Shown here: in pieces, positions 18,425 through 61,954 of the stretch
Position numbering within the stretch: position 1 is the first letter of the stretch
Layout: each line of letters begins with the position of its first letter
DNA from: Natrinema ejinorense
Lineage (GTDB): Archaea; Halobacteriota; Halobacteria; Halobacteriales; Natrialbaceae
DNA length: 64,000 nucleotides
Assembly (NCBI RefSeq): GCF_002494345.1
Contig: NZ_NXNI01000002.1
Location: 186,001-250,000, forward strand
Direction: 5' to 3'
Translations under genes and position numbers: made by a program
Notes under the pieces: generated by a model
What the model was told of the DNA's origin: nothing
Database searches by the model: none
Seen by the model: only the letters and a program-made list of their open reading frames with translations

Positions 18425-19429
18425 ATGTCTCGAGGAGTACATACGACCGACGCAACGATCATCGACTTCTGTGCGCACATCCACCCGGACGACCCGCCGG
18501 AGACCGAATTCTTCAACCAGTTCATGGACGACGACATCGGCGAACCGGTCTATCGCGACCTCGATACGTACGTTCGCCACTACGAGGAGGCCGGACTCGA
18601 CGGTGCCGTTCTCTCCCAACCGTACTACATGGGTCACGAGGATGTCGACCGAACGCGGCACGCGAACGACGTCCTCCTCGAGGGGATCGACGGGCGCGAG
18701 AACTACTACGGACTGGCTTCGATTCCGACGGCTGCGGGCGGCGAGGCCGCCGCCGCGGAGTTCGAACGCTGCCTCGAGGCGGGCTACCACGGCGGTGCAC
18801 TCGAGACGCGCTCGGATGGGATCGAACCACACCACGAGGCGGTCGAGCCCATCTTCGAGGTCGCCGAGGAATACGACGCACCGATTCTCGTCCATCCGAA
18901 ACTCAACGACTCGCTCTCTCCCGATGCGCTCGACGATACGTGGCTGTTGAACGCGACGTTCGGTCGCGAAGTCGCACTCGCCGCGAGTATCGCGAAAGTG
19001 GTCCACACGGGCGTCCTCGACCGCCATCCGGATCTGAACCTGGTCTACCACCACAACGGCGGCAACATCGCAGGGATGCTCGGTCGCGCTCAGCTCATGC
19101 TCGAGAAGTTTCCGCCACAGAAGTGGGCAGACCGGAAAGGCGAGCCCCTCGGCGGCCAGGTCAAGGACTTCGATTCCTTCCAGGCCCAACTCGAGGACCG
19201 GATCTACATCGACACGGCGGGGTTCTACGCCTATCACAACGTTCTCAGGAGCGCACTCATGCAGTTCCCCACGTCGCAACTGCTCTTCGGGACCGACTTC
19301 CCCTTCGAGGCGCGAACGCCGAAGGACTTCGAGGACTACGTCACGCTGATCGAACGGGAAACGGGAACGCCGGATTCCGAACGGATCCTCGGCGGCAACG
19401 CGCTCGATCTGCTGGCCAACGTCGACTGA
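18425..19429 (+). CDS. Amidohydrolase-2 (ACMSD-type) metal-dependent hydrolase/decarboxylase, paralogue 1
   Basis: The 334-residue TIM barrel belongs to the ACMSD/gamma-resorcylate decarboxylase branch, which decarboxylates or hydrolyses aromatic or ring-fission acids. It keeps the classical strand-1 metal pair His18-x-His20 (FCAHIHP), a strand-5 His in ILVHPK, the catalytic His region YHHNGGN, and the metal-ligand Asp in FGTDFPF. LSQPYYMGHED is a further conserved segment. It shares long blocks and the C-terminal DLLANVD with the genes at 23973 and 60986. It is a single-gene unit, convergent with an MFS carrier. The substrate is unknown. Confidence 0.88.
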   Translation: MSRGVHTTDATIIDFCAHIHPDDPPETEFFNQFMDDDIGEPVYRDLDTYVRHYEEAGLDGAVLSQPYYMGHEDVDRTRHANDVLLEGIDGRENYYGLASIPTAAGGEAAAAEFERCLEAGYHGGALETRSDGIEPHHEAVEPIFEVAEEYDAPILVHPKLNDSLSPDALDDTWLLNATFGREVALAASIAKVVHTGVLDRHPDLNLVYHHNGGNIAGMLGRAQLMLEKFPPQKWADRKGEPLGGQVKDFDSFQAQLEDRIYIDTAGFYAYHNVLRSALMQFPTSQLLFGTDFPFEARTPKDFEDYVTLIERETGTPDSERILGGNALDLLANVD

Positions 19430-22917: not shown

Positions 22918-23064
22918 TGCGTGTGGTGTTTGACAGCACACGTGCATATACTTAATCGAAAAGAATGTTACATGTTCTCGTGACTCACTGTTACACCCAG
23001 CCGAGAGCGGCCATCCGACCCACTCTCCGCCGCCGGAGACCGTGTGTGGGAAGCTCACTCACAA

Positions 23065-23075
23065 CTACTATATAC
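23065..23075 (+). promoter_or_regulatory. TATA box of the 3-hydroxyisobutyrate dehydrogenase-like gene
   Basis: CTACTATATAC lies 21-31 bases before the ATG at 23096 and excludes the upstream in-frame ATG at 23042. Confidence 0.6.
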
Positions 23076-23095
23076 GTCCAGAGAGGTGTTCACGT

Positions 23096-23971
23096 ATGGC
23101 CGAACGACTGGGTTTTGTCGGTATCGGACGAATGGGTTCGGAAATGGCGAAGAACATGATGGCCGGTGGTGAAGACGTCATCGTCTTCGACATCGACGAG
23201 GATCGTGTCGCGGAACTGGTCGACGCCGGGGCGGACAGCGCCGAGTCGGTCACGGAACTCGTCGACGCAGCCGACATCGTGTTCACGTCCCTCCCGAAGA
23301 ACGAAACCGTCGAAGCGGTGTATTTCGGCGACGACGGTATCCTCGAGTCGCTGACCGACGGGATGGCGGTCGTCGAGATGAGCACGGTCAAACCCGAGAC
23401 GGTTCGACGGATTCAGACGGACCTCGAGGATCGCGGTCTGGACGTCGAGGTCGTCGACTGTCCGGTCATCGGGATTCCGTCGACCGCACGCGATGCGGAG
23501 CTGACGGTCCTCGTCGGTGCCACCGAGGACGGATTCGAGCGGTTGCGACCGTCCCTCGACCATATCGGGACCTCGATCGAACACGTCGGCGAGCCCGGCC
23601 GGGCGAAGGCGATCAAACTCGTCAACAACGTCGTCACGTACGGCAACTACGCGCTCGCCGCCGAGGTGTTCGCGCTGGCCGAGCAACTCGAGATCGGCCG
23701 CGAGGAACTCTTCGAGATCATCGACAGCGGTGCCGCACAGTCGTCGATCCTCGCTTCGAAGCTCCCGAACGTTCTCGAGGGGTCGTTCGAACCGGGGTTT
23801 ACCGTCGAGGGTGCGCTGAAAGACCTCGAGTACGCACTCGAACTCGGCCACGAAGAACGGTTCGAACTCCCGGTCTCGGAGATGGTCGCCGGGCGATATC
23901 GGTACGCCATCGATCGGGGACACAGCGAGGACGATTACTCGATACTCATGGAGGCGCTTTCCGAGGAGTAG
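23096..23971 (+). CDS. NAD(P)-dependent beta-hydroxyacid dehydrogenase (3-hydroxyisobutyrate dehydrogenase family)
   Basis: The 291-residue protein has the N-terminal dinucleotide fold GIGRMG at residues 9-14 and the all-helical second domain. The family catalytic Lys lies in AKAIKLVNN, and CPVIGIPSTARDAELTVLVG is the substrate-binding segment (usually VSGG; here IGIPST). Members oxidise 3-hydroxyisobutyrate, 2-(hydroxymethyl)glutarate or tartronate semialdehyde equivalents. The altered IGIPST segment suggests a different substrate from classical MmsB. It is followed convergently, two bases from its stop, by amidohydrolase 2. Confidence 0.9.
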   Translation: MAERLGFVGIGRMGSEMAKNMMAGGEDVIVFDIDEDRVAELVDAGADSAESVTELVDAADIVFTSLPKNETVEAVYFGDDGILESLTDGMAVVEMSTVKPETVRRIQTDLEDRGLDVEVVDCPVIGIPSTARDAELTVLVGATEDGFERLRPSLDHIGTSIEHVGEPGRAKAIKLVNNVVTYGNYALAAEVFALAEQLEIGREELFEIIDSGAAQSSILASKLPNVLEGSFEPGFTVEGALKDLEYALELGHEERFELPVSEMVAGRYRYAIDRGHSEDDYSILMEALSEE

Positions 23972-23972
23972 C

Positions 23973-24950
23973 TCAGTCGACGTTCGCCAACAGGTCCAGC
24001 GTGTTTTGCCCGAGAACTCGCGTTGCGTCCGTCGACGACGTGACGTCTTCGACGGTCGCGACGAACGCTTCGAGTTCGTCGTCCGTCCGCGGCTCGTAGG
24101 GAATATCCGTCCCGAACAGCAGCTGCGTGCTCGGGAACTCCTCGAGGGCCGTTCGGACCGGGGCGTGATAGCCGAAGAAGCCCGAGGTATCGACGTAGAC
24201 GCGCTCTTCGAGTTGCCGTTTGAACGCCGCGGAGGATTTGATCGACTCCTGGCCCGGCCAGCGGCCGATGTCGTGGTGGAGGTGGACGCGACCGAGCATC
24301 GCTGCGATGTTCCCGCCGAGGTGGTGAAAGACCAGGTCGAGGTTTTCGTACCGATCGAGCAGCCCGGTGTGAATCGCCTTACAGATCCCTCGAGAGAGCG
24401 CCACTTCGCGCCCGAAGACCGCGTTCAGTCGATACGTATCGTCGAGGGTATCGGGGTGGATCGAGTCGTCGATTTTCGGGTGAACCAACAGCGGTGCGTC
24501 GTACGCGTCGGCCACCTCGAGGACGGGCTCGACTTCCTCGTCGGTCAGTTCGATCCCTTGCGTACTCGTCTCGAGCGCGCCGCCGTGGTAGCCCGCCTCG
24601 AGACAGCGTTCGAGTTCGGCGGCGGCCGTCTCACCGCCGGCCGCGACGGGGAGTGCGGCCAGCCCGTAGAATCGATCTTCGGCGTCGATCATCGACAGCA
24701 GTGCGTCGTTCGTTTCGGCGACCAGTTCGGCGTCGCCGTCGCCCATGTAGTAGGGTTGTGAGAGGACGGCCTCGTCGACCCCGGCGGCGTCCATCCGCTC
24801 GAGCAAGACGGCGGGATCGTGATGGATCGGGCCGAGCAACTCGTTGAGATCCGCGTCCGGGTTGTCATCCGATCCGGGAAGGTACTCCTCCGGATAGATG
24901 TGGGCGCCGAAATCGATCACGTGGTGGTCGGGTGTGTTCGGTGGTATCAT
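23973..24950 (-). CDS. Amidohydrolase-2 (ACMSD-type) protein, paralogue 2
   Basis: The 325-residue TIM barrel is closely similar to the proteins at 18425 and 60986: LSQPYYMGDGD, LLVHPKIDDS, FHHLGGNIAAMLGR, LLFGTDIPY and the same DLLANVD end. The strand-1 motif is His17-x-Tyr19 (GAHIYP) instead of His-x-His, so one classical metal ligand is replaced. Decarboxylase or hydrolase activity on a ring-derived acid is expected from the family, but metal binding may differ. Its stop nearly abuts that of the hydroxyacid dehydrogenase. Confidence 0.87.
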   Translation of the reverse strand: MIPPNTPDHHVIDFGAHIYPEEYLPGSDDNPDADLNELLGPIHHDPAVLLERMDAAGVDEAVLSQPYYMGDGDAELVAETNDALLSMIDAEDRFYGLAALPVAAGGETAAAELERCLEAGYHGGALETSTQGIELTDEEVEPVLEVADAYDAPLLVHPKIDDSIHPDTLDDTYRLNAVFGREVALSRGICKAIHTGLLDRYENLDLVFHHLGGNIAAMLGRVHLHHDIGRWPGQESIKSSAAFKRQLEERVYVDTSGFFGYHAPVRTALEEFPSTQLLFGTDIPYEPRTDDELEAFVATVEDVTSSTDATRVLGQNTLDLLANVD

Positions 24951-25119: not shown

Positions 25120-25902
25120 ATGACAGTCGAGATAGACCTCTCGGGACAGACAGCGATAGTGACCGGAGCCGGCCGCGGCATCGGTGAAACGATCGCGACG
25201 ACGTTCGCACGAGCAGGCGCGGACGTCGTCGCAGTAGCGAGAACGCAGTCGGAAATCGAAGAGACGGTCGAACGAGTCGAGGAGTACGGCGTCGACGGGA
25301 TGGCCGTCCAGACCGACCTCCGGAACGTCGACGAGATCGATTCGCTGATGGATACGGTACTCGAGGAGTGGGGAACGCCGGAGATCCTCATCAACAACGC
25401 CGCGTTGAACCTCACCAGTCCGCCCCTCGACCAGTCGCTCGAGGAAGTCGACGCGATGCTCGACGTGAACGTTCGCGGCCTGTTCTTGCTCTCCCAGCGC
25501 TTCGGCCAGGCGTTCCGGGAGAGCGATCGCGAACAGGGGCGCATCATCAACATCTCGAGTCTGACGTCGAAACTCGGCGTCTCACAGATGACGCTCTACT
25601 CCGGGACGAACGGCGGCGTGAACAGTATCACCCGGGGGTTGGCAGCCGAACTCGCCGACGACGGCGTTACCGTGAACGCGGTGATCCCCGGGCTGATCGA
25701 AATCGACAGGATCGCCGATCTCATCGAGCGGAAGGGAGACGAGATTTACGCGCTCGATCGCGTTCCACTCGGGAAGCTCGGAGAGGCACGTCACATCGCC
25801 GATGCTTGCCTCTTTTTCGCCTCCGACCTCTCCGAGTACATCACCGGCGAACAGCTGAAAGTCGACGGCGGCGTCGGCTTCACTGCGGGCCTCTACAAGT
25901 AA
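25120..25902 (+). CDS. SDR-family oxidoreductase with Asn in place of the catalytic Lys (SDR 1)
   Basis: A 260-residue classical short-chain dehydrogenase: TGAGRGIG nucleotide motif near residues 16-23, NNAA motif, catalytic Ser in NISS and Tyr 13 residues later. The residue four after Tyr is Asn (YSGTN) where the family has Lys (YxxxK). C-terminal GEQLKVDGG and GFTAGLYK are as in the other SDRs here. It is very similar to the neighbour at 26074, which has the same substitution, and to the gene at 43885, which keeps Lys. Either chemistry is altered or activity is lost. The substrate is unknown. Confidence 0.9.
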   Translation: MTVEIDLSGQTAIVTGAGRGIGETIATTFARAGADVVAVARTQSEIEETVERVEEYGVDGMAVQTDLRNVDEIDSLMDTVLEEWGTPEILINNAALNLTSPPLDQSLEEVDAMLDVNVRGLFLLSQRFGQAFRESDREQGRIINISSLTSKLGVSQMTLYSGTNGGVNSITRGLAAELADDGVTVNAVIPGLIEIDRIADLIERKGDEIYALDRVPLGKLGEARHIADACLFFASDLSEYITGEQLKVDGGVGFTAGLYK

Positions 25903-26073
25903 GGGTCGCCACCCGTTCGATTCGACGACAACCGCGACTCCCGTCGTTTACCGGTTCGTGCTCGAGGGTCGATTCCGTCCGTGCCGGCCGTCGAACGTCA
26001 TTTCGGTTCCGCCTTCGGAAAACTCACTATCGTGACAGTAACCTCTATACGACAGTGTCGGAAACGGTGTCCT

Positions 26074-26865
26074 ATGGAGTTAGACCTTTCCGGCCAGACG
26101 GCACTCATCACGGGTGCCGGCCGCGGCATCGGCGAAGAGATCGCGCTGACGTTCGCGGAGGCAGGTGCGAACGTCGTCGCGGCGGCTCGCACGGAGTCGG
26201 AGATCGAGGAGACGGTAGCCGACGTGGAAGCCCACGGCGTCGAGGGACTCGCCGTTCCGACGGATCTCAGATCGGTCGAGGCGATCGAAACCCTCGTCGA
26301 GACGACGGTCCGCGAGTTCGGTGGCTCCGAGATCCTGGTCAACAACGCGGCGTTGAACCTCACGAACCCGCCCGAAGCGCAGTCCCTCGAGGAGGTCGAC
26401 GCGATGATGGACGTCAACCTCCGAGCCGTCTTTCTGCTCACCCAGCGATGGCGGGAGCAGTTCGTCGCGTCGAGCGCCGATCGGGGGCGGGTGATCAACG
26501 TCTCGAGCAACTCGGCGTATTTCGGCATCCCTGCGATGACGTTCTACGGCGGCACGAACGCCGGCGTCCTCGCGCTGACCCGCGGCTTCGCCGCGACCAT
26601 GGCCGAGGAGGGGGTCACGGTCAACTCGATCGTTCCGGGACTGACCCGCGTCGACCGCATCGAGGAGCTGTTGGAGAAACAGGAACGCGGCGAAATCGAT
26701 CGGATCCACCAGCTGGAGAACCATCCGTTGAATCGCCCGGCCGAGCCCGAGGAGATCGCGTACGCGTGTCTCTTCCTCGCGTACGATCTAGCGGATTACA
26801 TCACCGGCACCAGTATCCTCGTCGACGGCGGGTTGGAACTCACGCGATCTCCCTATACGATGTGA
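26074..26865 (+). CDS. SDR-family oxidoreductase with Asn in place of the catalytic Lys (SDR 2)
   Basis: The 263-residue protein is a close homologue of the preceding gene, probably a tandem duplicate. TGAGRGIG is near the N-terminus, NNAALNL follows, then Ser in NVSS and Tyr in FYGGTN, again with Asn at the usual Lys position. The C-terminus differs (SPYTM). It has its own TATA-like CCTCTATACG at 26042-26051, and a perfect palindrome CGACA-G-TGTCG (26050-26060) between that and the ATG. The shared substitution in two expressed-looking copies argues for function. Confidence 0.9.
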   Translation: MELDLSGQTALITGAGRGIGEEIALTFAEAGANVVAAARTESEIEETVADVEAHGVEGLAVPTDLRSVEAIETLVETTVREFGGSEILVNNAALNLTNPPEAQSLEEVDAMMDVNLRAVFLLTQRWREQFVASSADRGRVINVSSNSAYFGIPAMTFYGGTNAGVLALTRGFAATMAEEGVTVNSIVPGLTRVDRIEELLEKQERGEIDRIHQLENHPLNRPAEPEEIAYACLFLAYDLADYITGTSILVDGGLELTRSPYTM

Positions 26866-36475: not shown

Positions 36476-36634
36476 GGTCGACAGTGGGTCCCGTTCTCTC
36501 GAGCGTCGTCCCCGCGGATTCGTCCTGACGACACCAGTACCGGTTTCGATTCGAACCCGTTTCGGTCCACGACCTCCTTCGGGACCGGTGTGACTGACAA
36601 CAACACTAATAATGGATCGGAAACATTCACCTGT

Positions 36635-37339
36635 ATGGCATCGTACATCGACCTCGGACAGGAGATTTACCAGGACCAGCCAGTGTATCATACGCACCAG
36701 AAGACCGCCATGTGGACGGATACCTCCCACGAGGATGCCCGACACGCCCTGGAGAAGCAGGTCGGCGGAGAGCCGCCGTTTACCTTCGAGACCAAGGCGC
36801 TCCTGTTGTGTGACCACGGACCGACCCACGTCGACGCTCCTCGACACTTCAGCCCCGAGGGGGACCCGATCAACGAGATGCCCCTCGAGCAGTTTCACAC
36901 GCCGGGGACCGCCATCGAAGTCACCCACCGTGATCCGGGCGAGTACATCACCGTCGAGGACCTCGAGTCGGCGTGTGACGACGCGGGCGTGACCGTCGAC
37001 GAGGGAGACACGCTGTTGATTCGGACGGGCCACTACGATCGGACGCATCCGTCACGGGAGTACGCGGAGAACTATCCGGGACTCAGCGAAGACGCGACCC
37101 AGTGGATCATCGACCAGGGGGTCGTCAATTTCGGCGTCGACCAGCCAAGTCCCGACACGCCTGACGATCCAACGTATCCGTGTCACACCTTGTGTCGCGA
37201 AAACGACGTCCCGCACATGGAGAACTTGCGGAATATCGATCGCGTGATCGGCGAGGAGTTCACCTTCATCGGATTCCCGCTCGCGATCCGCGAGGGAACC
37301 GGCTCGCCGATCCGACCAGTCGCCGTCCTCGAGGACTGA
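36635..37339 (+). CDS. Cyclase family protein (kynurenine formamidase/isatin hydrolase-like)
   Basis: The 234-residue metal-dependent hydrolase shows the family motif CDHGPTHVDAPRHF (variant of HxGTHxDxPxH) binding Mn/Zn, followed by DTLLIRTGHYDR and FGVDQPSPD. It hydrolyses N-formyl or cyclic amide bonds such as N-formylkynurenine or isatin. An in-frame ATG at 36590 adds 15 polar residues, but ACTAATAATGG at 36604-36614 looks like the TATA box, favouring 36635. Ring-amide opening would fit the dihydropyrimidinase and monooxygenase genes that follow (inference). Confidence 0.88.
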   Translation: MASYIDLGQEIYQDQPVYHTHQKTAMWTDTSHEDARHALEKQVGGEPPFTFETKALLLCDHGPTHVDAPRHFSPEGDPINEMPLEQFHTPGTAIEVTHRDPGEYITVEDLESACDDAGVTVDEGDTLLIRTGHYDRTHPSREYAENYPGLSEDATQWIIDQGVVNFGVDQPSPDTPDDPTYPCHTLCRENDVPHMENLRNIDRVIGEEFTFIGFPLAIREGTGSPIRPVAVLED

Positions 37340-38089: not shown

Positions 38090-39358
38090 ATGGCTGATCA
38101 AATCTACGACTACACTGGCCCGGCGCGAGTCTGCCACGACGGGCACGTTTATTATAACGAACACGTCATGCGGGAAGCCTACGAGCTGCCTCCCCTCGAG
38201 GACCGCGACCGAACCAAAGCGTCGATCGACGAGCCCCTCGACGTGATCATCTCCGGCGGGTCGATGGGCGGACTGTTCGCCGCCACGGCCATGCGCCAGG
38301 CCGGTCACGACGCCACCGTTTACGAACGGACGGAAGCGGGGAAGATGAAAGATCGGGGTGCCGGAATCATCGCCCACCCGGAAATGCTCGCCTACCTCGA
38401 AAGTCAAAACATCGCGGACTGGGACGAGTTGGCGACGGTAACCAACCGTACACAGCACCTGAATCGAGAGGGGGAGCCGATCGATACTGAAGGACGTGCG
38501 ACCTATACCACGTCGTGGGATACCGTCTACCGAAATCTGCGTGCCGAGGTGCCCGACGATCGGTATCGGATGGGCAAACAGATCGTCGACGTCGACCAGG
38601 ACGACGACGGCGTTACGGTGACGTTCCAGGACGGCACCACCGAAACGGGCGATCTGCTGATCGTCGCGGAGGGGTATCGGTCCCACACTCGCGAGCAATT
38701 CCTGCCCGATCGCAGCCCCGAATACGCCGGCTACGTCGCCTATCGGGGCGTCGTCCCCGAAGACGAGGTGCCAGCGGAGTACGAGACGCGATTCGGCGAC
38801 ATCTACAACCTTTACCACGCACCGCAGTCGCAGTTCCTCACGTACCCGGTTCCCGGTCCGAACGGGGAGATGGAACGGGGAGAGCGCCGCATCAACTGGG
38901 TCTGGTACTATCCGTTCGAGGAAGGTGAGGCCCTCGATAACCTGTTGCTCGACGATCAGGGCCGACAGCGGTCCCATTCGTTGCCGCCAGGACTGATGCG
39001 CGAGGAAGTCCACGACGAACAGATCGAAATCGCGAGCGACGTCCTCCCCGAACAGCTGCAGTGGCTCGTCTCGGCGACGACGGAACCGTTCGTGCAGTGT
39101 ATCTACGACCTCGCGATTCCCGAACTCGTCTTCGACAACGTGTGCGTTATCGGGGACGCCGCGTTCTTCATCCGACCACACATGGCGGCGGGGACGGCAC
39201 ACGCCGCCGCTGACGCCCTGGAACTGGCCGAATCGATCTCCAACACGGACGACCTGGAGACTGCCCTCGCCGAGTGGGAGACCGACCAGGTAGAGATGGG
39301 GTACCGCCTCGTCGAGGAGGCGAGCCGGCGCGGGGACCGCTACACCGGACAGTTCTAA
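38090..39358 (+). CDS. FAD-dependent monooxygenase, 2,6-dihydroxypyridine 3-monooxygenase-like
   Basis: The 422-residue group A flavoprotein hydroxylates an aromatic or N-heteroaromatic ring with NAD(P)H and O2. The FAD motif is GGSMGGLFAATAMRQAGHD (56-74), the GSxGG form typical of dihydroxypyridine hydroxylases; RGAGIIAHPEMLAYL follows, and IGDAAFFIRPHMAAGTAHAA is the FAD-ribityl GD motif with the same subfamily flavour. The N-terminal 50 residues are an extra segment. Possible substrates are pyridine, pyrimidine or phenolic intermediates. The nearby hydropyrimidinase, asparaginase and molybdenum hydroxylase support N-heterocycle breakdown (inference). Confidence 0.85.
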   Translation: MADQIYDYTGPARVCHDGHVYYNEHVMREAYELPPLEDRDRTKASIDEPLDVIISGGSMGGLFAATAMRQAGHDATVYERTEAGKMKDRGAGIIAHPEMLAYLESQNIADWDELATVTNRTQHLNREGEPIDTEGRATYTTSWDTVYRNLRAEVPDDRYRMGKQIVDVDQDDDGVTVTFQDGTTETGDLLIVAEGYRSHTREQFLPDRSPEYAGYVAYRGVVPEDEVPAEYETRFGDIYNLYHAPQSQFLTYPVPGPNGEMERGERRINWVWYYPFEEGEALDNLLLDDQGRQRSHSLPPGLMREEVHDEQIEIASDVLPEQLQWLVSATTEPFVQCIYDLAIPELVFDNVCVIGDAAFFIRPHMAAGTAHAAADALELAESISNTDDLETALAEWETDQVEMGYRLVEEASRRGDRYTGQF

Positions 39359-40640: not shown

Positions 40641-41990
40641 CTATGGGCGTGCGACGAAGCTGCCGTATCCCGGTTCGCCGACGATCTCGCCGTTCTCGAC
40701 GACCGGCTCGCCTCTGACGTAGGTCGTCTCCGGTACGCCCGTGACGGTGAGTCCGTCGTAGGGCGTCCAGCCACACTTGGCAACCACGTCCTCGTCTCGG
40801 AGCGTCTGCTCGCGGTCCATGTCGACGACGACGAAGTCGGCGTCGCTCCCGACGCGGAGGGTCCCCTTCCGCGGGTAGATGTCGGTGATCTTCGCGGGAT
40901 TGGTCGCGAACACTTCCGCTACGCGGTTGAGCGTCACCTTGCCGTCGCTGGCGCCGTTGAGCAACAGCGGGAGGACGGTCTCGACCCCCGGAATGCCGAA
41001 GGGGGCGTCGAAGACGTTGTCCTCTCCCTGGGCTTTCTGGGCTTTCGTACTCGGGGCGTGATCCGCGTTGACCATGTCGATCTCGCCGTTCGCGAGTCGG
41101 TTCCACATCTCCTCCCGATCGCTCTCCTCGCGTGCGGGCGGCGTGAACATGGTGTAGGGAGCGTCGCGCTCGACGTCCTCCCGGGTGAGATAGAAGTACT
41201 GCGGACAGGTCTCCGCGTAGACGTCGACGCCCTGGGCCTTGGCGTGGTTGACCTGATCGACGAGCTCGGGATGAGTGAGGTGGGCGAACCACAGCGATAC
41301 CCCGGTCTGTTTCGCGATCTGTAGGGTCGTCGAGACGGCGAGCTGTTCCGCTTCCTTCGAGCGCCACTCCGGCACGATGCTCCCGTCGGCGCGGCCACTC
41401 TCACGGATTCGCTCCTCGTTTGCGTTGAGCAGTCGTTCGTCCTCGGGGTGGATCATGCTGATCCCGCCGACGCGCTCGACCTCGGTGAACACCTCGGCCA
41501 TGTAATCGCTCAACAGCGCGGGGACGCCGTGGACTTCACAGGTAAAACTCTTGTAGGCCATCGTCCCGGCGGCTTCGAGACCCTCGATCTCGTCGACGTT
41601 GTCGGGATGGCCGCCGGCCAGCAACCCGAAATCGACGCGGGCGCGGTCGCTGAGGTACTCGCGTTTGTCGGTGAGTATCTCGGCCGTCAACACCGTGGGA
41701 TCGGTTCGGTGGTGCTCGCCGACGGTCGTGATACCGCCCGCCGCCGCTGCGGCGGTTCCCGTCGGGAAATCCTCCCGCTCGGTGTCGCCCGGATCCATCA
41801 TGTGGACGTGCGGGTCCACCCCGCCGGGCAACACGTGTTTGCCGGCCGCGTCGACGACCCGTTCGGCCTCGACGGCGGTGTCCGGATCGACGAATCCCGT
41901 GATCGTCCCGTCGTCGACGAGGAGCGTCGCCTCGAGCGAGTCGTCGGCGGTTACGATGGTTCCACCCGTCACTGTGACATCGTGTGTCAT
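40641..41990 (-). CDS. Dihydropyrimidinase/allantoinase-type cyclic amidohydrolase
   Basis: The 449-residue amidohydrolase has the full binuclear metal site: His61-x-His63 (DPHVHMMDPG), carboxylated Lys147 (MAYKSFTC), His181 (IHPED), a further His in WFAHLTHPE (about 237-240) and Asp310 (NADHAPS). It hydrolyses cyclic amides: dihydropyrimidines, hydantoins, allantoin or dihydroorotate. The frame extends to 42032, but MTHDVTVTGG at 41990 is the family start. It is divergent from the asparaginase gene with 207 bases between; ring opening followed by deamidation would make biochemical sense. Confidence 0.92.
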   Translation of the reverse strand: MTHDVTVTGGTIVTADDSLEATLLVDDGTITGFVDPDTAVEAERVVDAAGKHVLPGGVDPHVHMMDPGDTEREDFPTGTAAAAAGGITTVGEHHRTDPTVLTAEILTDKREYLSDRARVDFGLLAGGHPDNVDEIEGLEAAGTMAYKSFTCEVHGVPALLSDYMAEVFTEVERVGGISMIHPEDERLLNANEERIRESGRADGSIVPEWRSKEAEQLAVSTTLQIAKQTGVSLWFAHLTHPELVDQVNHAKAQGVDVYAETCPQYFYLTREDVERDAPYTMFTPPAREESDREEMWNRLANGEIDMVNADHAPSTKAQKAQGEDNVFDAPFGIPGVETVLPLLLNGASDGKVTLNRVAEVFATNPAKITDIYPRKGTLRVGSDADFVVVDMDREQTLRDEDVVAKCGWTPYDGLTVTGVPETTYVRGEPVVENGEIVGEPGYGSFVARP

Positions 41991-42197
41991 ATACGAACCA
42001 CCAACACGCTCGAGGTAATTGAGTGTTTTCACCTGTGGGTGTTTTCGCTGTGGGGTGTACTGTTGTCGCTACTGCGTCTCCATCGTACAGGCACGCTCGC
42101 AGTCGCCAGTTCGGGCCGACCGTTCGTTGCCGGCTCGGGACGGCCGGAGTCGGGGTTCGGTGACAAAACTTAAGCGAATGCCACAAAAAGCCGGGGC

Positions 42198-43163
42198 ATG
42201 GCCGTCACAGTAATTTCGACCGGCGGAACGATCGCGTCGACCGACAGCTCGGACGGTGGCGGTGCCGCTCCCGAGCTCACGGCAGCGACCCTCGTCGGGG
42301 CCGTCCCCGGCCTCGAGGAGACCGTCGACATCGAGACGCACGATTTCTCGAACGTGCCGAGCCCGCACTTTACGATCGAGCAGATGTACGAGCTCGTCGA
42401 GTTGATTCGCGAACTCGACGACGACCCCGACGTGGATGGACTGGTCGTCACCCAGGGGACCGACATCCTTGAGGAGTCGGCGTATTTCGTTGACCTCTGT
42501 TACGATGGGACGACGCCGGTCGCGTTCACCGGCGCGATGCGCAACCCGTCCCTGGCCAGCCCCGACGGCCCCGCAAACCTCCTGGCGAGCGTTCAGACCG
42601 TCCGGAGCGAGGCGGCCGCGGACGCGGGCGTGGTCGTCGTGTTCAATGACCGCGTCCACGCCGCCAGGGACGTGACGAAGACGAACTCGATGAACGTCGA
42701 TACCTTCCGCTCGCCGGAGTTCGGCCCCCTCGCGGTCCGCGACGAGGACCGAGTGACCTGGCGGCGGTCGACCGAGGGCGAGGAACCGACGTTCGATCCC
42801 GATCCCGATCGGCTCACGAACGACGTCTTCGCCGTCACGGCCACGGCCGATATGCCCGAGGCAGCCGTCAGTTCGGCGGCCGACAGCGCGGCGCTCTGTC
42901 TCGCTGCGACGGGTGCCGGTCACATCCCGCCGACGATCATCCCGGCACTCGAGTCGCTTCGCGATCGAGCCGTCCCGATCGTCGCGACGACCCGGTGTCC
43001 GGAGGGCCGACTCGCCCGCGACACCTACGGCTTCCGGGGGAGCGAGGCGACGCTTCGGGAACTCGATTGCTACTACAGCGAGCGCAACCTCCAGAAGACG
43101 CGGATCAAGACCATCGTCGCGCTGGCGGCCGATCGGTTGCCCGACGCGTTCGACAGCCCCTGA
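42198..43163 (+). CDS. Asparaginase-family amidohydrolase
   Basis: The 321-residue protein has both asparaginase signatures: VISTGGTIASTDSS, with the nucleophilic Thr11, and VTQGTDILEESAYFVDL, with the second Thr-Asp pair. TTPVAFTGAMRNPSLASPDG follows. It hydrolyses L-asparagine or a similar terminal amide. It is divergent from the cyclic amidohydrolase, and AAAACTTAAGCG at about 42164-42175 is a candidate TATA box. In this context a non-asparagine amide from ring degradation is possible, but the sequence alone fits ordinary asparaginase. Confidence 0.92.
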   Translation: MAVTVISTGGTIASTDSSDGGGAAPELTAATLVGAVPGLEETVDIETHDFSNVPSPHFTIEQMYELVELIRELDDDPDVDGLVVTQGTDILEESAYFVDLCYDGTTPVAFTGAMRNPSLASPDGPANLLASVQTVRSEAAADAGVVVVFNDRVHAARDVTKTNSMNVDTFRSPEFGPLAVRDEDRVTWRRSTEGEEPTFDPDPDRLTNDVFAVTATADMPEAAVSSAADSAALCLAATGAGHIPPTIIPALESLRDRAVPIVATTRCPEGRLARDTYGFRGSEATLRELDCYYSERNLQKTRIKTIVALAADRLPDAFDSP

Positions 43164-43884: not shown

Positions 43885-44670
43885 ATGACTATCCAACTGG
43901 ACTTATCCGACGACACCGTGATCGTGACCGGCGGCGGCCGTGGTATCGGGGAAGAAATCGTGTACGCGTTCGCGGAGGCGGGCGCTGATGTCGTCGTCGC
44001 GGCACGGAGTGAGGACGAGATTTCGCGGGTAGCCGAGCGAGCGAGGACCGAGTTCGACGTCGGTGCCGCCGCAGTCCCGACGAATCTCGTGGATCGAGAC
44101 GAGATCGCGGCCCTCGTCGACGCGACGGTCGACGAGTTCGGGACGCCGTCCGTGCTCGTGAACAACGCGGGCGCGAACATCGCGGGGCCCCCGCTCGACA
44201 TGACCGCGGACGAAGTCGACACGATGTTCGACGTCAACGTTCGCGGGCTCTTCCTCCTCTCGCAGGAGTTCGGACGAGCCGTCAGGGAGTCCTCGCTCGA
44301 ATCCGGTCGAATACTCAATATCTCGAGCGTCGTCGCGGATCTCGGCGTGCCGGCGATGACCGTCTATGCGGGGACGAAATCCGCGGTGCGGGGACTAACC
44401 AAAGGGATGGCGGCGGAGCTCGCTCCCGATGGCGTCACGGTCAACTCGATCTCGCCGGGACTCGTCCGAATCGAACGGACGGAACAGGTCATGGAGGAAC
44501 ACGGCGACGAACTGTTCGACTTCGATCGGATCCCGCTTGGCCGCGTCGGAAAGCCTCGAGACGTCGCAAACGCGTGTCTCTTCTTCGCATCGGATCTCGC
44601 GGACTACGTCACCGGCGAGGACCTCCTCGTCGACGGCGGCGTCGAGTTTACCGCAGGCCTCTACAAGTAA
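43885..44670 (+). CDS. SDR-family oxidoreductase with complete catalytic set (SDR 3)
   Basis: The 261-residue classical SDR has TGGGRGIG near residues 14-21, NNAGANI, Ser in NISS and the normal YAGTK Tyr-Lys pair. It is clearly related to SDR 1 and SDR 2 over its whole length, including the EFTAGLYK end shared with SDR 1 (GFTAGLYK), so it looks like the version before the Lys-to-Asn change. NAD(P)-linked oxidation of a hydroxy acid or cyclic alcohol is likely. TATA candidate ACTTATAG at 43844-43851. Confidence 0.92.
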   Translation: MTIQLDLSDDTVIVTGGGRGIGEEIVYAFAEAGADVVVAARSEDEISRVAERARTEFDVGAAAVPTNLVDRDEIAALVDATVDEFGTPSVLVNNAGANIAGPPLDMTADEVDTMFDVNVRGLFLLSQEFGRAVRESSLESGRILNISSVVADLGVPAMTVYAGTKSAVRGLTKGMAAELAPDGVTVNSISPGLVRIERTEQVMEEHGDELFDFDRIPLGRVGKPRDVANACLFFASDLADYVTGEDLLVDGGVEFTAGLYK

Positions 44671-45403: not shown

Positions 45404-46174
45404 TCAGTACCAGACCGTTCCGCCATCGACGTTGAGGTCCTGTGCCGTTATCGAGCGCGCGTTCTCGCTGGCGAGAAACGAGGCTGCGTCGGCGATATCG
45501 CTCGCATCGACGAGTTTCCCGAGCGCGGCCTCGTCGGTGAACAACTGTGCTTTCGCTTCCTCGAAGCTGACGTCGAGGGAGTCGGCTTGTTCCTCGATCA
45601 CCGAGTCGATCCGTGGCCCCTTGGTTGCTCCCGGACAGATCGCGTTGACGGTGACGTCGTCGTCACCGAACTCGACGGCCAGCGTTCGGGTCAACCCGAT
45701 CACGGCCATCTTCGATGCGGTGTACGGCGTCCGATTTCGGAGCGGCCGCTTGCCGCTGATCGAGGAGAGGTTGATCACGCTCCCCCTGTCGCTCTCTCGC
45801 AGGTGAGGGGCCGCGTACTTCGTCATCAGAAACATCCCGTCGACGTTGACGCTCATCGTCTCCCGCCACTCCTCGAGCGTGACCTCCTCGATCGGCGCCG
45901 TCGGTCCGGCGATGCCGGCGTTGTTGACCAGGCAGTCGATCCCGCCGAACTCGTCGACGGCCGCCTCGATGCCGTCGACGACCGAGTCCTCGTCGGTGAC
46001 GTCGACTTCCACCGCGAGCGTCGCACGCGATTCGATCTCGTCTTCCGTCTCGTAGATTCCGTCGCTTCGGGCAGCGAGAACGACGTTTGCGCCGTGGTCC
46101 GCCATCGTAATCGCGATCTCTCGACCGATTCCCTGACTCGCACCGGTTACGACCGCCGTTACGTCCTCGAGCAT
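45404..46174 (-). CDS. SDR-family oxidoreductase (FabG/glucose dehydrogenase type, SDR 4)
   Basis: The 256-residue classical SDR has TGASQGIG near residues 10-17, NNAGIAG, Ser in NLSS, and YTASK with intact Tyr and Lys. The C-terminal QDLNVDGGTVWY is common in haloarchaeal polyol or 3-oxoacyl reductases. It is less similar to SDR 1-3 and has a different substrate region (SFEEAKAQLFTDEAALGKL). TATA on the minus strand at about 46198-46210 (ATACTATTTTACT). Confidence 0.92.
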   Translation of the reverse strand: MLEDVTAVVTGASQGIGREIAITMADHGANVVLAARSDGIYETEDEIESRATLAVEVDVTDEDSVVDGIEAAVDEFGGIDCLVNNAGIAGPTAPIEEVTLEEWRETMSVNVDGMFLMTKYAAPHLRESDRGSVINLSSISGKRPLRNRTPYTASKMAVIGLTRTLAVEFGDDDVTVNAICPGATKGPRIDSVIEEQADSLDVSFEEAKAQLFTDEAALGKLVDASDIADAASFLASENARSITAQDLNVDGGTVWY

Positions 46175-46365
46175 TGCGCGGATAGTTGATCGCACTGAGT
46201 AAAATAGTATTGGTGTTCCCCGCCCTCGAGGGACTCCCCGTCGGACCTGTATTACTGTCTCGCACACGCCGTGGAGTTGACCCGCTGTCAACTCGGCCGG
46301 CGACGGCCCGTTCCCTGTCGATCAGCCGTGGTCCCCGATAGGGAGTGGTGGACGTGGCCCGCCGT

Positions 46366-55856: not shown

Positions 55857-56861
55857 TTACTGGTCGTTCCAGTCGTACAGGCCCCGGAGATCCTCGCCGA
55901 CGGACTCGATCTGATGCTCGGAGTCAGCACGGCGAAGCTGGTGATACGACGGCCGTCCACACTGGTTCTCCGAAATCCACTTTCGGGCGAACTCGCCGGT
56001 TTGTACCCGTTCGAGCGCCTCTTGCATGTTCTCCCGGACCTGATCGTCGACGATATGTCGTCCCTCTTCCAATCCGCCGAATTCCGCGGTATCCGAGACG
56101 GAATGCCACATGTTCTCCAGTCCGCCTTCGTAAATGAGATCGACGATGAGTTTGAGTTCGTTCAGACACTCGAAGTACGCGATTTCGGGACTGTACCCGT
56201 TCTCGACGAGGGTTTCGAATCCGAGCTTGATGAGTTCGGTAACGCCCCCACAGAGGACGGCCTGTTCGCCGAAGAGATCTGATTCGACTTCTTCTTGGAA
56301 CGTCGTTTTGATGACTCCGGCACGAGCACAGCCGATCTTCTGGGCGTAGGTCAGCGCTTTCGTTTCAGCGTCACCGGTCACGTTCTGATACACGGCGAGG
56401 AGTCCCGGTGTTCCCTGATCACGGTTGTAGTTCCGCCGTACCAGGTGCCCCGGACTCTTCGGCGCGACCATCGTCACGTTGACGTCCGCTGGCGGCTCGA
56501 TCTGGGAGTAATGGATACTGAAGCCGTGTGCGAACTGGAGCGTATCTCCCGCCTCGAGGTGGTCTTCGACCTGGTTGTAAACCGGGATATGCGCGCGGTC
56601 GGGAACGAGAATCGAAACGATGTCTCCGGCTTTTGCCGCTTCGGGGACCGTTCGAACGTCGAGCCCCTCGTCTTCCGCTGCCTCCCAGGAGGCGGAGCCT
56701 TCCCGCAGTCCGACGACGACGTCGACGCCGCTGTCGTAGAGGTTCAACGCGTGTGCGTGGCCCTGGCTACCGTATCCGAGAACGGCAACCGTCTCGTCGT
56801 CGAGCGCCGCCGCGTCGGCGTCCTGTTCATGGTACACTGTAGAGCTGAAGTTATCGGCCAT
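55857..56861 (-). CDS. ilvC: Ketol-acid reductoisomerase (stand-alone, diverged)
   Basis: The 334-residue class I KARI converts 2-acetolactate to 2,3-dihydroxyisovalerate with NADPH. Seen: GYGSQGHAHALNL (30-42), VVVGLREGSASWE, AHGFSIHY, Lys in VAPKSPGHLVRR, Mg ligands in EVESDLFGEQAVL and ECLNELKLIVDLIYEGG, and Ser in HSVSDTAE. Two usually conserved stretches differ: AHGFSIHYSQI rather than NIHYGQI, and RRNYNRDQGTPGLLAVYQNV rather than the REYxxGxGVP...QD form. There are no ilvB, ilvN, leu or ilvD neighbours. It may be a second copy recruited to another branched hydroxyketo acid. TATA on the minus strand at 56887-56900. Confidence 0.88.
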   Translation of the reverse strand: MADNFSSTVYHEQDADAAALDDETVAVLGYGSQGHAHALNLYDSGVDVVVGLREGSASWEAAEDEGLDVRTVPEAAKAGDIVSILVPDRAHIPVYNQVEDHLEAGDTLQFAHGFSIHYSQIEPPADVNVTMVAPKSPGHLVRRNYNRDQGTPGLLAVYQNVTGDAETKALTYAQKIGCARAGVIKTTFQEEVESDLFGEQAVLCGGVTELIKLGFETLVENGYSPEIAYFECLNELKLIVDLIYEGGLENMWHSVSDTAEFGGLEEGRHIVDDQVRENMQEALERVQTGEFARKWISENQCGRPSYHQLRRADSEHQIESVGEDLRGLYDWNDQ

Positions 56862-57649: not shown

Positions 57650-60088
57650 TTACTCCTCGTCGCGGAGCTTCGACCGCAACGTATCGGGCGTGACGGGAAC
57701 CGAATCGACGGTCACGCCGAGGGGTTCGAGCGCCGCATTGACCGACGTCGGGATCACGGCCGACGCCGAGATGACGCCGCCTTCCCCCGCGCCCTTTGCC
57801 CCGCTGGCTGTAAACGGGGATGGCGTCTCACGGTGTTCGAGTTCGATCTCCGGGATGTTCTCGATCGAGGGGAGCAGATAGTCGAACATGCTCACTGCCA
57901 GTGGCTGGCCGGACTCGTCGTATGCGAACTCCTCGAGGAGCGCACCACCGATCCCGTGGGCGATCGCCCCTTCGACCTGTCCTTCGACGATCTCGGGGTT
58001 CAACACCGTCCCGCAGTCGTGCAGGGAGTAGTACTTGAGGATGTCGACCGTTCCGTCCTCGATGTCGACCTCGACGATGGGGGCGTCGGCACAGTAGGCC
58101 GTCGCCGGATACGACGGCAACTGCTCGATCAGCGCCTCGTCGTACTCCTCGAGTTGGAGCGCGGGGTTCGTGTAATCGTACGTCGCGAGATGGTCGTCGT
58201 TGTCGGTCGTCGCCGGCAGATCGGATAGGGAGAGCTGGTCGTCCCCGTCGATGCGTTCGACGCGTCCCGACTCGTAGCGCACGTCCTCGGGCTCACAGCC
58301 CCACTGCTCGGCGGCGGCCTGTTTGAGGGTATCGATGACCGCATCGCCGAGGCCGATCGCCGCACCCGAGAGCATCACCCCCATCCGGGAGGCCGCCGCG
58401 CCGAAGTCCTTCGGTGCCTCGGCACTGTTGAGGAAATTCACGTCGATATCGAACGGCGAAATATCGAGTTCGTCGGCCATCAGTTGCGTGAGGACCGTCT
58501 GGTGGCCCTGCCCGGCGGAGCTCGTCGCCAGCGAGACGACCAACGAGCCGTCCTCGTCGATGTTCGCGGCGAGGTGCTCGGGGAACTCCGCGACGTCGTC
58601 TCGCGTGCGATTCGCGATCTCTTCGTCGCTCGCTTCGAACCGCGTCGCGTAGTCGATGACGCCGGCGGAGGGTTCCAGGGTGACGGCCGGCTGGGTCCCC
58701 CGGTACTTGCCCTCTTCCCGTTTTTGTTCGACGATCTCCGGGTCCAGGAGGCCGCCCTCGCAGCGCTCGTTTTCGTCGACGATCTCCTCGATCCGCCTGA
58801 GGGCAGCGGGATAGTCTCCTGAGTCGTAGATGTTCTTCGAGGGCAGTTTGTACGGCATCTCCTCGGGCGGGATGAGGTTCTGCATCCGGAACGCCGTGGG
58901 ATCCATCCCGACCGTCCGCGCCGCTTCGTCGATAGCCATCTCGAGGGCGAACGTGTGCTGTTGGACGCCGAACCCGCGGTAGGCGGTCTGTGGGACTTTG
59001 TTCGTCAACAGGAGTTCGTACGCGTATCGGACGGTATCGATCTCGTAGGAGGTGGTGAGCACGGACTGGGGCTTCATCGCCTGTGGCAGCGGGTAGCGGG
59101 GGAACGCGCCGAGGTCGTCCTGGAACGAGATGTCCAATCCCTCGATGCTGCCGTCGTCGTCGACCGCCAGCCGGACCTGATAGTCGCGCTCACAGGAGTG
59201 TGCGTCGCCGCCCTGCAGGTACTCGATGCGATCCTCGACGAACTTCACCGGTCGATCGAGTTGGTGGCTGGCCATCCCCGCGAGGGCACAGTAGCGTGCG
59301 CCCGCGGAAATCTTCGTGCCGTAGCTGCCGCCGATGTTCTCGGGGACGTGGAGCCGAACCTTCTCCTCGGGGTAGCCCAGCGAATCGTAGACGAGATCGC
59401 CGTTGAAGGTGTACAATTGGAGGTTGCAGTGGATGTCGAAGGAGTCGGTCTCCGAATCGTACTCAGCGACGGTTCCGGCCGTCTCGAGGGGCACGCCCGA
59501 AATCCGACCCCACGAGTAGTCGCTCTCGATGACGTGATCCGCCTGTGCGAAGGTTTCTTCCACGTCGCCGAACAGGAACTCGTCGTCGTCGGCGAGATTC
59601 GTCCCGCGGTCCTCGTGGAGGAGCACCTCGTCGGTCGACGCCGAGTCGACGTCGGTGACCGGATCGAGTTGGGTGTAGTCGGCTCTGATGAGATCCACGG
59701 CGTCCTCGGCGGCGTAGCGGTCGCTCGCGACGACGAGCGCGATCGGCTCGCCGGCGAAGCGAACGCGGTCGTTCGCCAGCGCCCACTCGGAGAAGCCGAG
59801 CCGACCTGGCATCGGTTCGTAGTGTTCTTCGATATCGGTGGCCGTCAAGACGAGTTCGCAGTTGGGGTGTGCCTCGGCGGCGGCCGTGTCGATCGACTCG
59901 ATCTCAGCGTGGGCGTGTGGGGCCCGGGCGAGTGCCATATGCAGGCAGTCGGGGGGCTCGATATCGTGAACGTAGTCCACTCTGCCGGTCAAGATATCGT
60001 AGTCCTCGACGCGCCGCATCGATTGGCCCGTGTACTTCGATTCTTCCTGTTCGGTGACGGGTTGGCCGTCGACTGCGCTTTCGGACAT
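57650..60088 (-). CDS. Xanthine dehydrogenase family molybdopterin-binding (large) subunit
   Basis: The 812-residue subunit binds the Mo cofactor and hydroxylates a carbon next to N or an aldehyde. The active-site loop is QTAYRGFGVQQ (367-377), the xanthine-dehydrogenase/nicotinate-hydroxylase form, not the AYxCSFR loop of CO dehydrogenase. The catalytic Glu769 is in KGAGEGGVIS. Thus the Cox-like name usually given would be misleading: an N-heterocycle or aldehyde is the likely substrate. Its ATG overlaps the small-subunit stop by one base (TAATG), showing an operon with the 2Fe-2S subunit. The FAD subunit is encoded 2.6 kb away. Confidence 0.92.
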   Translation of the reverse strand: MSESAVDGQPVTEQEESKYTGQSMRRVEDYDILTGRVDYVHDIEPPDCLHMALARAPHAHAEIESIDTAAAEAHPNCELVLTATDIEEHYEPMPGRLGFSEWALANDRVRFAGEPIALVVASDRYAAEDAVDLIRADYTQLDPVTDVDSASTDEVLLHEDRGTNLADDDEFLFGDVEETFAQADHVIESDYSWGRISGVPLETAGTVAEYDSETDSFDIHCNLQLYTFNGDLVYDSLGYPEEKVRLHVPENIGGSYGTKISAGARYCALAGMASHQLDRPVKFVEDRIEYLQGGDAHSCERDYQVRLAVDDDGSIEGLDISFQDDLGAFPRYPLPQAMKPQSVLTTSYEIDTVRYAYELLLTNKVPQTAYRGFGVQQHTFALEMAIDEAARTVGMDPTAFRMQNLIPPEEMPYKLPSKNIYDSGDYPAALRRIEEIVDENERCEGGLLDPEIVEQKREEGKYRGTQPAVTLEPSAGVIDYATRFEASDEEIANRTRDDVAEFPEHLAANIDEDGSLVVSLATSSAGQGHQTVLTQLMADELDISPFDIDVNFLNSAEAPKDFGAAASRMGVMLSGAAIGLGDAVIDTLKQAAAEQWGCEPEDVRYESGRVERIDGDDQLSLSDLPATTDNDDHLATYDYTNPALQLEEYDEALIEQLPSYPATAYCADAPIVEVDIEDGTVDILKYYSLHDCGTVLNPEIVEGQVEGAIAHGIGGALLEEFAYDESGQPLAVSMFDYLLPSIENIPEIELEHRETPSPFTASGAKGAGEGGVISASAVIPTSVNAALEPLGVTVDSVPVTPDTLRSKLRDEE

Positions 60089-60603: not shown

Positions 60604-60948
60604 TGTTTGGTAGGTGTATCGTTTATTGGCGAACGAACGTGGTCGGTCTCGATAGCACGCTCGTGGGAATAGGTGGCCGACGATGTCCGCCCTCCGCCGA
60701 GGGTGTGGAACCGCGAGTCGGTCGAGGGGAACCATCGTCTTTGTGTGTTACTCTCATTCCCGGTGTACCCTATGTCGCTCCTCATCACAAATAAGCGTAT
60801 CGCACGCGGCTTCATAAGACCGCGTGCTCCTCGCTGGAACTGCCCCGGGAGGATCACGACACGAGCGCAACCGTCCTTCCGTCCGGTCGGAATTGCGTTC
60901 GGAACCGTACAGTTCGCCGTTCCAGCCGACCCATCGAGTCCGCCGATC

Positions 60949-60960
60949 AAAACATCTAAG
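60949..60960 (+). promoter_or_regulatory. TATA-like element of amidohydrolase 3
   Basis: AAAACATCTAAG lies 26-37 bases before the ATG at 60986. It is a weaker match than the AAACTATTT motif of paralogue 1. Confidence 0.4.
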
Positions 60961-60985
60961 CGCTGACCGCTCGATTACGTATTCG

Positions 60986-61954
60986 ATGCCACAGAATACT
61001 GTTGCAGACCGCGATTTCCCAATCGTCGACTTCGGTGCGCACCTGGTAACGTCCGTGCCGGACTCGATGAAAGCACTCGACGACATCATCGGCCCGATTC
61101 ACCGCGATCCCGTGCAGACGATCGAGCGATACGAGGCGGCGGGCATCGATCGCCTGGTCCTCTCTCAGCCGCCGTTCATGGGTCACGACGACGTCGAGGA
61201 AACGGCCGCGGCGAACGACGAACTGCTGGAGATCATCGAGGAACACGAACAGCTCTACGGCCTCGCTGCGCTCCCCGTCGGTGCAGGCGGCGACGCCGCT
61301 GCCGAGGAACTCGAGCGCTGTCTGGACGCGGGATACCACGGCGGCGCACTCGAGACGACGTCCCACGGTATCAAACTCTCCGACGAGGAGGTCCGGTCCG
61401 TCTTCGACGTCGCCTCGCGTGAGGGCGCACCCCTGCTCGTCCACCCGAAGATCGACGATTCGCTCCACCCTGACGTCCTCGACGACAAGTACCGGCTGAA
61501 CGCGATTTTCGGGCGCGAAGCCGCCCTCTCCGAAAGCATCTTCGAGATGATTCACATGGGCATCCTCGACGACTACCCCGACCTCGATCTGGTCTTCCAC
61601 CACCTCGGTGGCAACATCGCGAGCATGCTCGGTCGCGTTCACCTTCACCACGATATCGGCCGGTGGCCGGGACAGGAGCACATCAAGCCCTACAACGAGT
61701 TCAAACAGCAACTCGAGGAACGCATCTATATCGACTCCTCCGGGTTCTTCGGCTACCACGCCCCGGTCCGGACGGCCCTCGAGGAGCTGCCGTCCTCGCA
61801 GGTAGTGTTCGGTACCGACGCTCCCTACGAGGGGCGCTCCTCGGACGAACTGAACCGGTTTGCGACCGTCGTGACGGACGTCGCCTCCCAGACCGACGCA
61901 GCGGCGGTCCTCGGTGGAAACACGCTGGATCTCCTCGCCAACGTCGACGAGTAA
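60986..61954 (+). CDS. Amidohydrolase-2 (ACMSD-type) protein, paralogue 3
   Basis: The 322-residue TIM barrel shares long blocks with the paralogues at 18425 and 23973: LSQPPFMGHDD, LLVHPKIDDS, FHHLGGNIASMLGR, VVFGTDAPYEG and DLLANVDE. The strand-1 motif is His19-x-Val21 (GAHLVTS), so the second classical metal-binding His is lost. It lies, in the opposite orientation, between the two blocks of molybdenum hydroxylase genes and may act on the hydroxylated product (inference). Activity should be tested rather than assumed. Confidence 0.87.
   Translation: MPQNTVADRDFPIVDFGAHLVTSVPDSMKALDDIIGPIHRDPVQTIERYEAAGIDRLVLSQPPFMGHDDVEETAAANDELLEIIEEHEQLYGLAALPVGAGGDAAAEELERCLDAGYHGGALETTSHGIKLSDEEVRSVFDVASREGAPLLVHPKIDDSLHPDVLDDKYRLNAIFGREAALSESIFEMIHMGILDDYPDLDLVFHHLGGNIASMLGRVHLHHDIGRWPGQEHIKPYNEFKQQLEERIYIDSSGFFGYHAPVRTALEELPSSQVVFGTDAPYEGRSSDELNRFATVVTDVASQTDAAAVLGGNTLDLLANVDE

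Follow-up and report, generated by a model that had tools for sequence, protein, structure and literature searches.

SDRs are among the largest enzyme superfamilies, and the lysine of their YxxxK motif is held to be necessary for lowering the pKa of the catalytic tyrosine and for holding the ribose. Classical SDRs are recognized by a Rossmann fold of ~250 residues with a TGxxxGxG cofactor motif and an NNAG-type motif. Complex SDRs have a glycine motif of the GGxGxxG type and a multidomain setting, and polyketide ketoreductases carry a lysine at the helix-4 position where classical SDRs carry asparagine. Halohydrin dehalogenase, an SDR-derived and cofactor-free enzyme, has lost the Gly-rich cofactor motif and has arginine for the lysine. 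SimC7, an atypical SDR with a substrate-assisted mechanism, is active without the Ser-Tyr-Lys triad (PMC5039031). The motif YxxxN has been listed for complex SDRs (PMC3144213), and this complex-type mention was all that our literature search gave for a natural YxxxN in a classical SDR. Here we describe two adjacent SDR genes of Natrinema ejinorense whose products are a variant of the classical SDRs by descent, without the catalytic lysine, and not canonical members of that group.

Two adjacent classical SDRs with asparagine in place of the catalytic lysine

The window, i.e., the whole stretch of 64,000 nucleotides that was analyzed, is located on a 416-kb replicon, and its relevant features are collected in Table 1. 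The initial annotation had pointed to a YxxxN motif, with AAC codons, in the two adjacent SDRs, with the catalytic serine 13 residues before the tyrosine, and to the retention of lysine in a close relative (gene 43885) and in a more distant SDR (gene 45404). Translation and alignment bore out each of these observations, the lysine codon of the close relative being AAA.

Table 1. Coordinates of the YxxxN SDR genes, their relatives, and neighboring genes in the window
Feature	Position	Strand	Identity to Haloarcula/G267	Remarks
3-Hydroxyisobutyrate dehydrogenase/tartronate semialdehyde reductase-like	23042..23971	+		Counterparts in the two other clusters (48% and 44%)
Amidohydro_2 (decarboxylase-type)	23973..24950	-		Divergent neighbor of the SDR pair
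SDR gene 1, classical, YSGTN	25120..25902	+		260 aa; Ser147, Tyr160 (at 25597), Asn164, Asn117; translation and alignment
Asn164 codon AAC, gene 1	25609..25611	+		In place of the catalytic Lys codon
SDR gene 2, classical, YGGTN	26074..26865	+		263 aa from conserved ATG; Ser145, Tyr158 (at 26545), Asn162, Asn115; translation and alignment
Asn162 codon AAC, gene 2	26557..26559	+		In place of the catalytic Lys codon
Kynurenine formamidase/isatin hydrolase-like cyclase	36590..37339	+	73/68%	Closest solved relatives, kynurenine formamidase/isatin hydrolase
2,6-Dihydroxypyridine hydroxylase-like FAD monooxygenase	38090..39358	+		Closest solved relative, 2,6-dihydroxypyridine hydroxylase
Hydantoinase/allantoinase-like cyclic amidohydrolase	40641..42032	-	78/73%	Closest solved relative, L-hydantoinase
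Asparaginase-like protein	42198..43163	+	69/70%
Sister SDR, YAGTK	43885..44670	+		Occurs in 3/3 genomes found with the YxxxN form
More distant SDR, YTASK	45404..46177	-	~70%	Kept in the same cluster
Molybdenum hydroxylase large subunit, quinoline 2-oxidoreductase-like	57650..60088	-	65/76%	Closest solved relative, quinoline 2-oxidoreductase

Both proteins matched PF13561 (185 bits for the product of gene 25120) and PF00106 strongly, with the KR profile far below adh_short_C2 as a match. Their AlphaFold2 models (mean pLDDT of 94.5 for 25120 and 94.1 for 26074, the more diverged copy of the pair) have the classical SDR fold, and the first of them superimposes on FabG (PDB 4jro) with a Z score of 38 and an rmsd of 1.2 Å. 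In the alignment, the Gly motif is of the classical TGxxxGxG type (TGAGRGIG) and is accompanied by NNAA, and all four YxxxN proteins, i.e., the pair and two orthologues described below, retain the catalytic serine, the tyrosine and the helix asparagine.

The four proteins have no lysine column in common, and 26074 (residue 202) and the G267 protein contain just one lysine each, which rules out a migration of the lysine to another place; the absence of a substitute thus stands at the sequence level, none being conserved in the clade. These observations also bear on catalysis of the complex type, as in polyketide ketoreductases, with lysine and asparagine exchanged. YxxxN is a recognized active-site motif of complex SDRs (PMC3144213), but the helix-4 position is asparagine and not lysine in all four proteins, there is no shared lysine column, and the Gly motif is of the classical type. 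The exchange is refuted by the helix position without lysine, and we consider catalysis of this kind hardly credible.

As to the proposal that each copy has its own promoter, TATA-like stretches are found ~26 to 32 bases upstream of the ATG of both genes, making it plausible at most, whereas the orthologue in genome G267 is coupled to the upstream molybdenum hydroxylase gene, its start codon overlapping the stop codon of the large subunit (ATGA).

Rarity, single origin and selection

To evaluate how common the substitution is, we used an alignment of 174 SDRs comprising haloarchaeal and bacterial relatives and 24 other SDRs from the same genome. The residue four positions after the tyrosine was lysine in 165 of them, asparagine in 5, arginine in 3 and alanine in 1. 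Tyrosine and asparagine occurred together only in four of the 174, the two window proteins and their two orthologues, and the fifth asparagine carrier (L062) has also lost its tyrosine. Another atypical active site, with Tyr replaced by Ser and Lys by Arg, was found in three SDR relatives of the same genome (L038, L086 and L147).

The close family was searched for in the entire home family (125 genomes), in the family of G267 (170) and in genomes drawn from the class and the order (391 and 392). Only four of the genomes searched contained it, to which a search of plasmids added Haloarcula sp. JP-L23. It was absent from G165, a genome of the same species, a megablast of the region against plasmids gave no match, and a contig scan recovered only generic SDRs with at most ~40% identity. 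The YxxxN pair is a rare, conserved and real active-site variant of classical SDRs.

The two orthologues, both YSGTN forms of 25120, were found on plasmid CP050017 of Haloarcula sp. JP-L23 (66% identical) and in G267 (60%), and identities among the four proteins range from 52 to 66%. In the maximum-likelihood tree they form one clade, sister to the 43885-type YxxxK clade, with a support of 96/93 (82/88 without the trait column) that concerns only four proteins from three genomes. Therefore, the lysine was most likely lost once, after which the asparagine persisted across one or more duplications and came to be present in three lineages; two independent losses are not favored given this support. 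Within the clade, third codon positions are the most variable and pairwise dN (0.27 to 0.46) is lower than dS (~1.0 to 1.15, near saturation and to be taken as a rough guide), so the YxxxN genes are under purifying selection.

The initial annotation had interpreted the substitution as selected rather than as decay, and the intact orthologues in three lineages, the single origin, the purifying selection and the fixed gene neighbors all agree with that interpretation. The search that it had proposed for YxxxN forms among haloarchaeal SDRs returned one clade with fixed gene neighbors, and homologues showed no random loss at this position. Decay into pseudogenes is ruled out by the conserved orthologues and the purifying selection, and a sequencing error by the presence of the same residue in four genes from three genomes.

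Changes around the missing lysine

Nine alignment columns fully separate the YxxxN from the YxxxK proteins, versus a mean of 2.4 and a maximum of 7 when the proteins are split 4/5 in other ways. The active-site shell accounts for four of these columns, at positions 148 (Ser+1), 149 (Ser+2), 164 (Tyr+4) and 189 (before the PG motif). Residue 149 is V, I or A in the YxxxK proteins and T or S in the YxxxN proteins, while residue 189 is S in the former and I, T or V in the latter. The enrichment of separating columns in the active site is modest (P = 0.04, or 0.11 without position 164). As far as the alignment shows, neighboring active-site positions have been altered along with the loss of the lysine.

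The fold and the other catalytic residues all match those of FabG and gluconate dehydrogenase-like SDRs, which would suit an ordinary alcohol dehydrogenase or ketoreductase, slow but able to do without the lysine, with no special chemistry. However, the asparagine has been kept in all four proteins despite their divergence, together with covarying active-site columns, although a single base change would restore the lysine, and we regard this explanation as unlikely. The initial suggestion of a nonredox activity (dehydratase, isomerase or epimerase), which would rely on the tyrosine and the serine whether or not NAD(P) is bound, is consistent with the altered active-site shell and with the retention of the tyrosine where the lysine is gone, a combination suited to acid catalysis and not to a hydride-coupled base. 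Yet the cofactor-binding residues are invariant between the YxxxN and YxxxK clades in the alignment, Arg41 and TGxxxGxG being unaltered, and no feature indicates any particular nonredox reaction, so that we find this option distinctly unlikely. Because the cofactor site, the serine and the tyrosine have all been kept, the observations fit a redox enzyme of altered chemistry, or a subunit that pairs with the YxxxK paralogue (see below), at least as well as a nonredox or ligand-binding function.

A putative N-heteroaromatic catabolic cluster

Positions 18425 to 63570 of the window, together with flanking sequences (L159 and L160), contain a putative haloarchaeal N-heterocycle catabolic gene set with 55 to 78% identity to that of plasmid CP050017 of Haloarcula JP-L23 and of G267. 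A description of this gene set was not found in the literature searched. By homology to the closest solved relatives of the neighboring gene products (Table 1), the cluster points to N-heteroaromatic catabolism; among the routes for nicotinate, pyrimidine, hydantoin and purine, none accounts for more than part of the gene set. Further members in common with Haloarcula and G267 are the CoxG and medium subunits of the molybdenum hydroxylase, Amidohydro_2 proteins, a HisD-like dehydrogenase, a 2-hydroxyacid dehydrogenase and a CoA-acylating aldehyde dehydrogenase. In both of these genomes, the orthologue of the 57650 gene is located directly upstream of the YxxxN gene, and the 2-hydroxyacid dehydrogenase gene comes next after it.

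The window has three decarboxylase-type Amidohydro_2 paralogues (18425-19429, 23973-24950 and 60824-61954), with one in the stretches examined from Haloarcula and G267. The catabolic region also contains, beside an IclR-like regulator, a gene (55857-56861) for ketol-acid reductoisomerase, an enzyme of branched-chain amino acid synthesis. In G297, a gene of the RidA type (imine/enamine deaminase family; L124:7864-8256) precedes the YxxxK relative, with a nitrilase-type gene further up, which hints at imine chemistry in the vicinity of this SDR family.

In Haloarcula JP-L23 and in G267, as in the window, the catabolic cluster also includes a single YAGTK/YGGTK sister and a single SDR of the 45404 type, while G297 and G078 have YxxxK forms only. 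This constant company is what would be expected if the YxxxN protein were a catalytically weak or silent subunit of a hetero-oligomer whose chemistry is carried out by the 43885-type paralogue, and it fits that role as well as it fits the explanation that we prefer. The C-terminal tail FTAGLYK/R is common to both clades in these genomes, except in 26074, and heterotetrameric SDRs (human ketoacyl reductase, 4cqm, and BbsCD, 7pcs) are among the closest folds. On the other hand, a silent protein need not retain the serine, the tyrosine, Asn117, TGxxxGxG and Arg41, and the YxxxN and YxxxK genes are not adjacent, the YxxxN gene following that of the molybdenum hydroxylase (XDH) large subunit in G267 and Haloarcula. 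We consider such a partner subunit the main rival explanation, possible but rather doubtful.

A possible role for a lysine-free active site

The pair belongs to a FabG-like SDR subclade of single origin in which the change from lysine to asparagine has been kept. The explanation that we tentatively prefer, although it falls somewhat short of being probable, is that these are neofunctionalized SDRs whose NADP(H)-binding, lysine-free Ser-Tyr-Asn site would act in haloarchaeal N-heteroaromatic degradation, perhaps on a C=N bond or another ring-derived intermediate. The YxxxN proteins would still bind NADP(H). With no ammonium group nearby, the tyrosine would stay protonated and would serve as a proton donor or hydrogen bond partner and not as a base, which would favor the reduction of a polarized or already cationic group, such as the C=N or iminium of an intermediate derived from the ring, rather than the usual oxidation of an alcohol.

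In imine-reducing SDRs, the charge of the lysine has been reported to be unfavorable for the iminium transition state, and the residue two positions after the catalytic serine to mediate protons (PMC7540600). At these positions, the YxxxN clade has lost the lysine charge and carries Thr or Ser. Counting against the preferred explanation, replacement of this lysine by alanine in the imine-reducing SDR-Zt nearly abolished specific activity, with 17% conversion left (PMC7540600). In a bolder version, which we hold to be rather unlikely, a dedicated lysine-free subfamily of classical SDRs, with Ser-Tyr-Asn and a hydroxyl residue at Ser+2, would have arisen in haloarchaea for the reduction of a cationic C=N (or similar) intermediate in the breakdown of N-heteroaromatics. 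Losing the lysine charge would then itself have been the adaptation.

Because a natural, selected subclade has dropped just the lysine and a YxxxK sister encoded in the same cluster can serve as an internal control, the role of this residue is open to direct testing. The subclade could also provide a natural template for imine-reducing SDRs, and the cluster looks like an undescribed haloarchaeal N-heterocycle pathway.

Comparison with known SDR systems

FabG-like classical SDRs (PF13561/PF00106; PDB 2uvd and 4jro) share with the YxxxN proteins the fold (Z scores of 37 to 38) and the TGxxxGxG, Ser, Tyr, helix Asn, NNA and PG motifs, but the lysine is replaced by asparagine throughout the YxxxN subclade, and the residues after the catalytic serine and before PG have changed. 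Complex SDRs (ketoreductase domains of PKS/FAS) have the YxxxN motif in common with the window type, which is, in contrast, a stand-alone protein of 259 to 263 aa with TGxGRGIG and with asparagine instead of lysine at the helix position. The SDR imine reductases (SDR-Zt and noroxomaritidine reductase) have the same classical fold, 6y4d and 5ff9 being among the fold matches, and likewise a polar residue at Ser+2. They have kept the catalytic lysine where the window proteins have asparagine, and imine reduction by the latter is a proposal by analogy. As in the heterotetrameric SDRs (human HSD17B8/CBR4 and BbsCD), there are paired paralogous SDRs of closely similar fold; here the paralogues co-occur in the genomes, and both adjacent copies carry the change from lysine to asparagine. 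SimC7 has lost both the tyrosine and the lysine (replaced by Ile and His), whereas the tyrosine is kept in the YxxxN proteins. Finally, in comparison with halohydrin dehalogenase, the YxxxN proteins have an intact Gly motif, and the residue in place of the lysine is asparagine.
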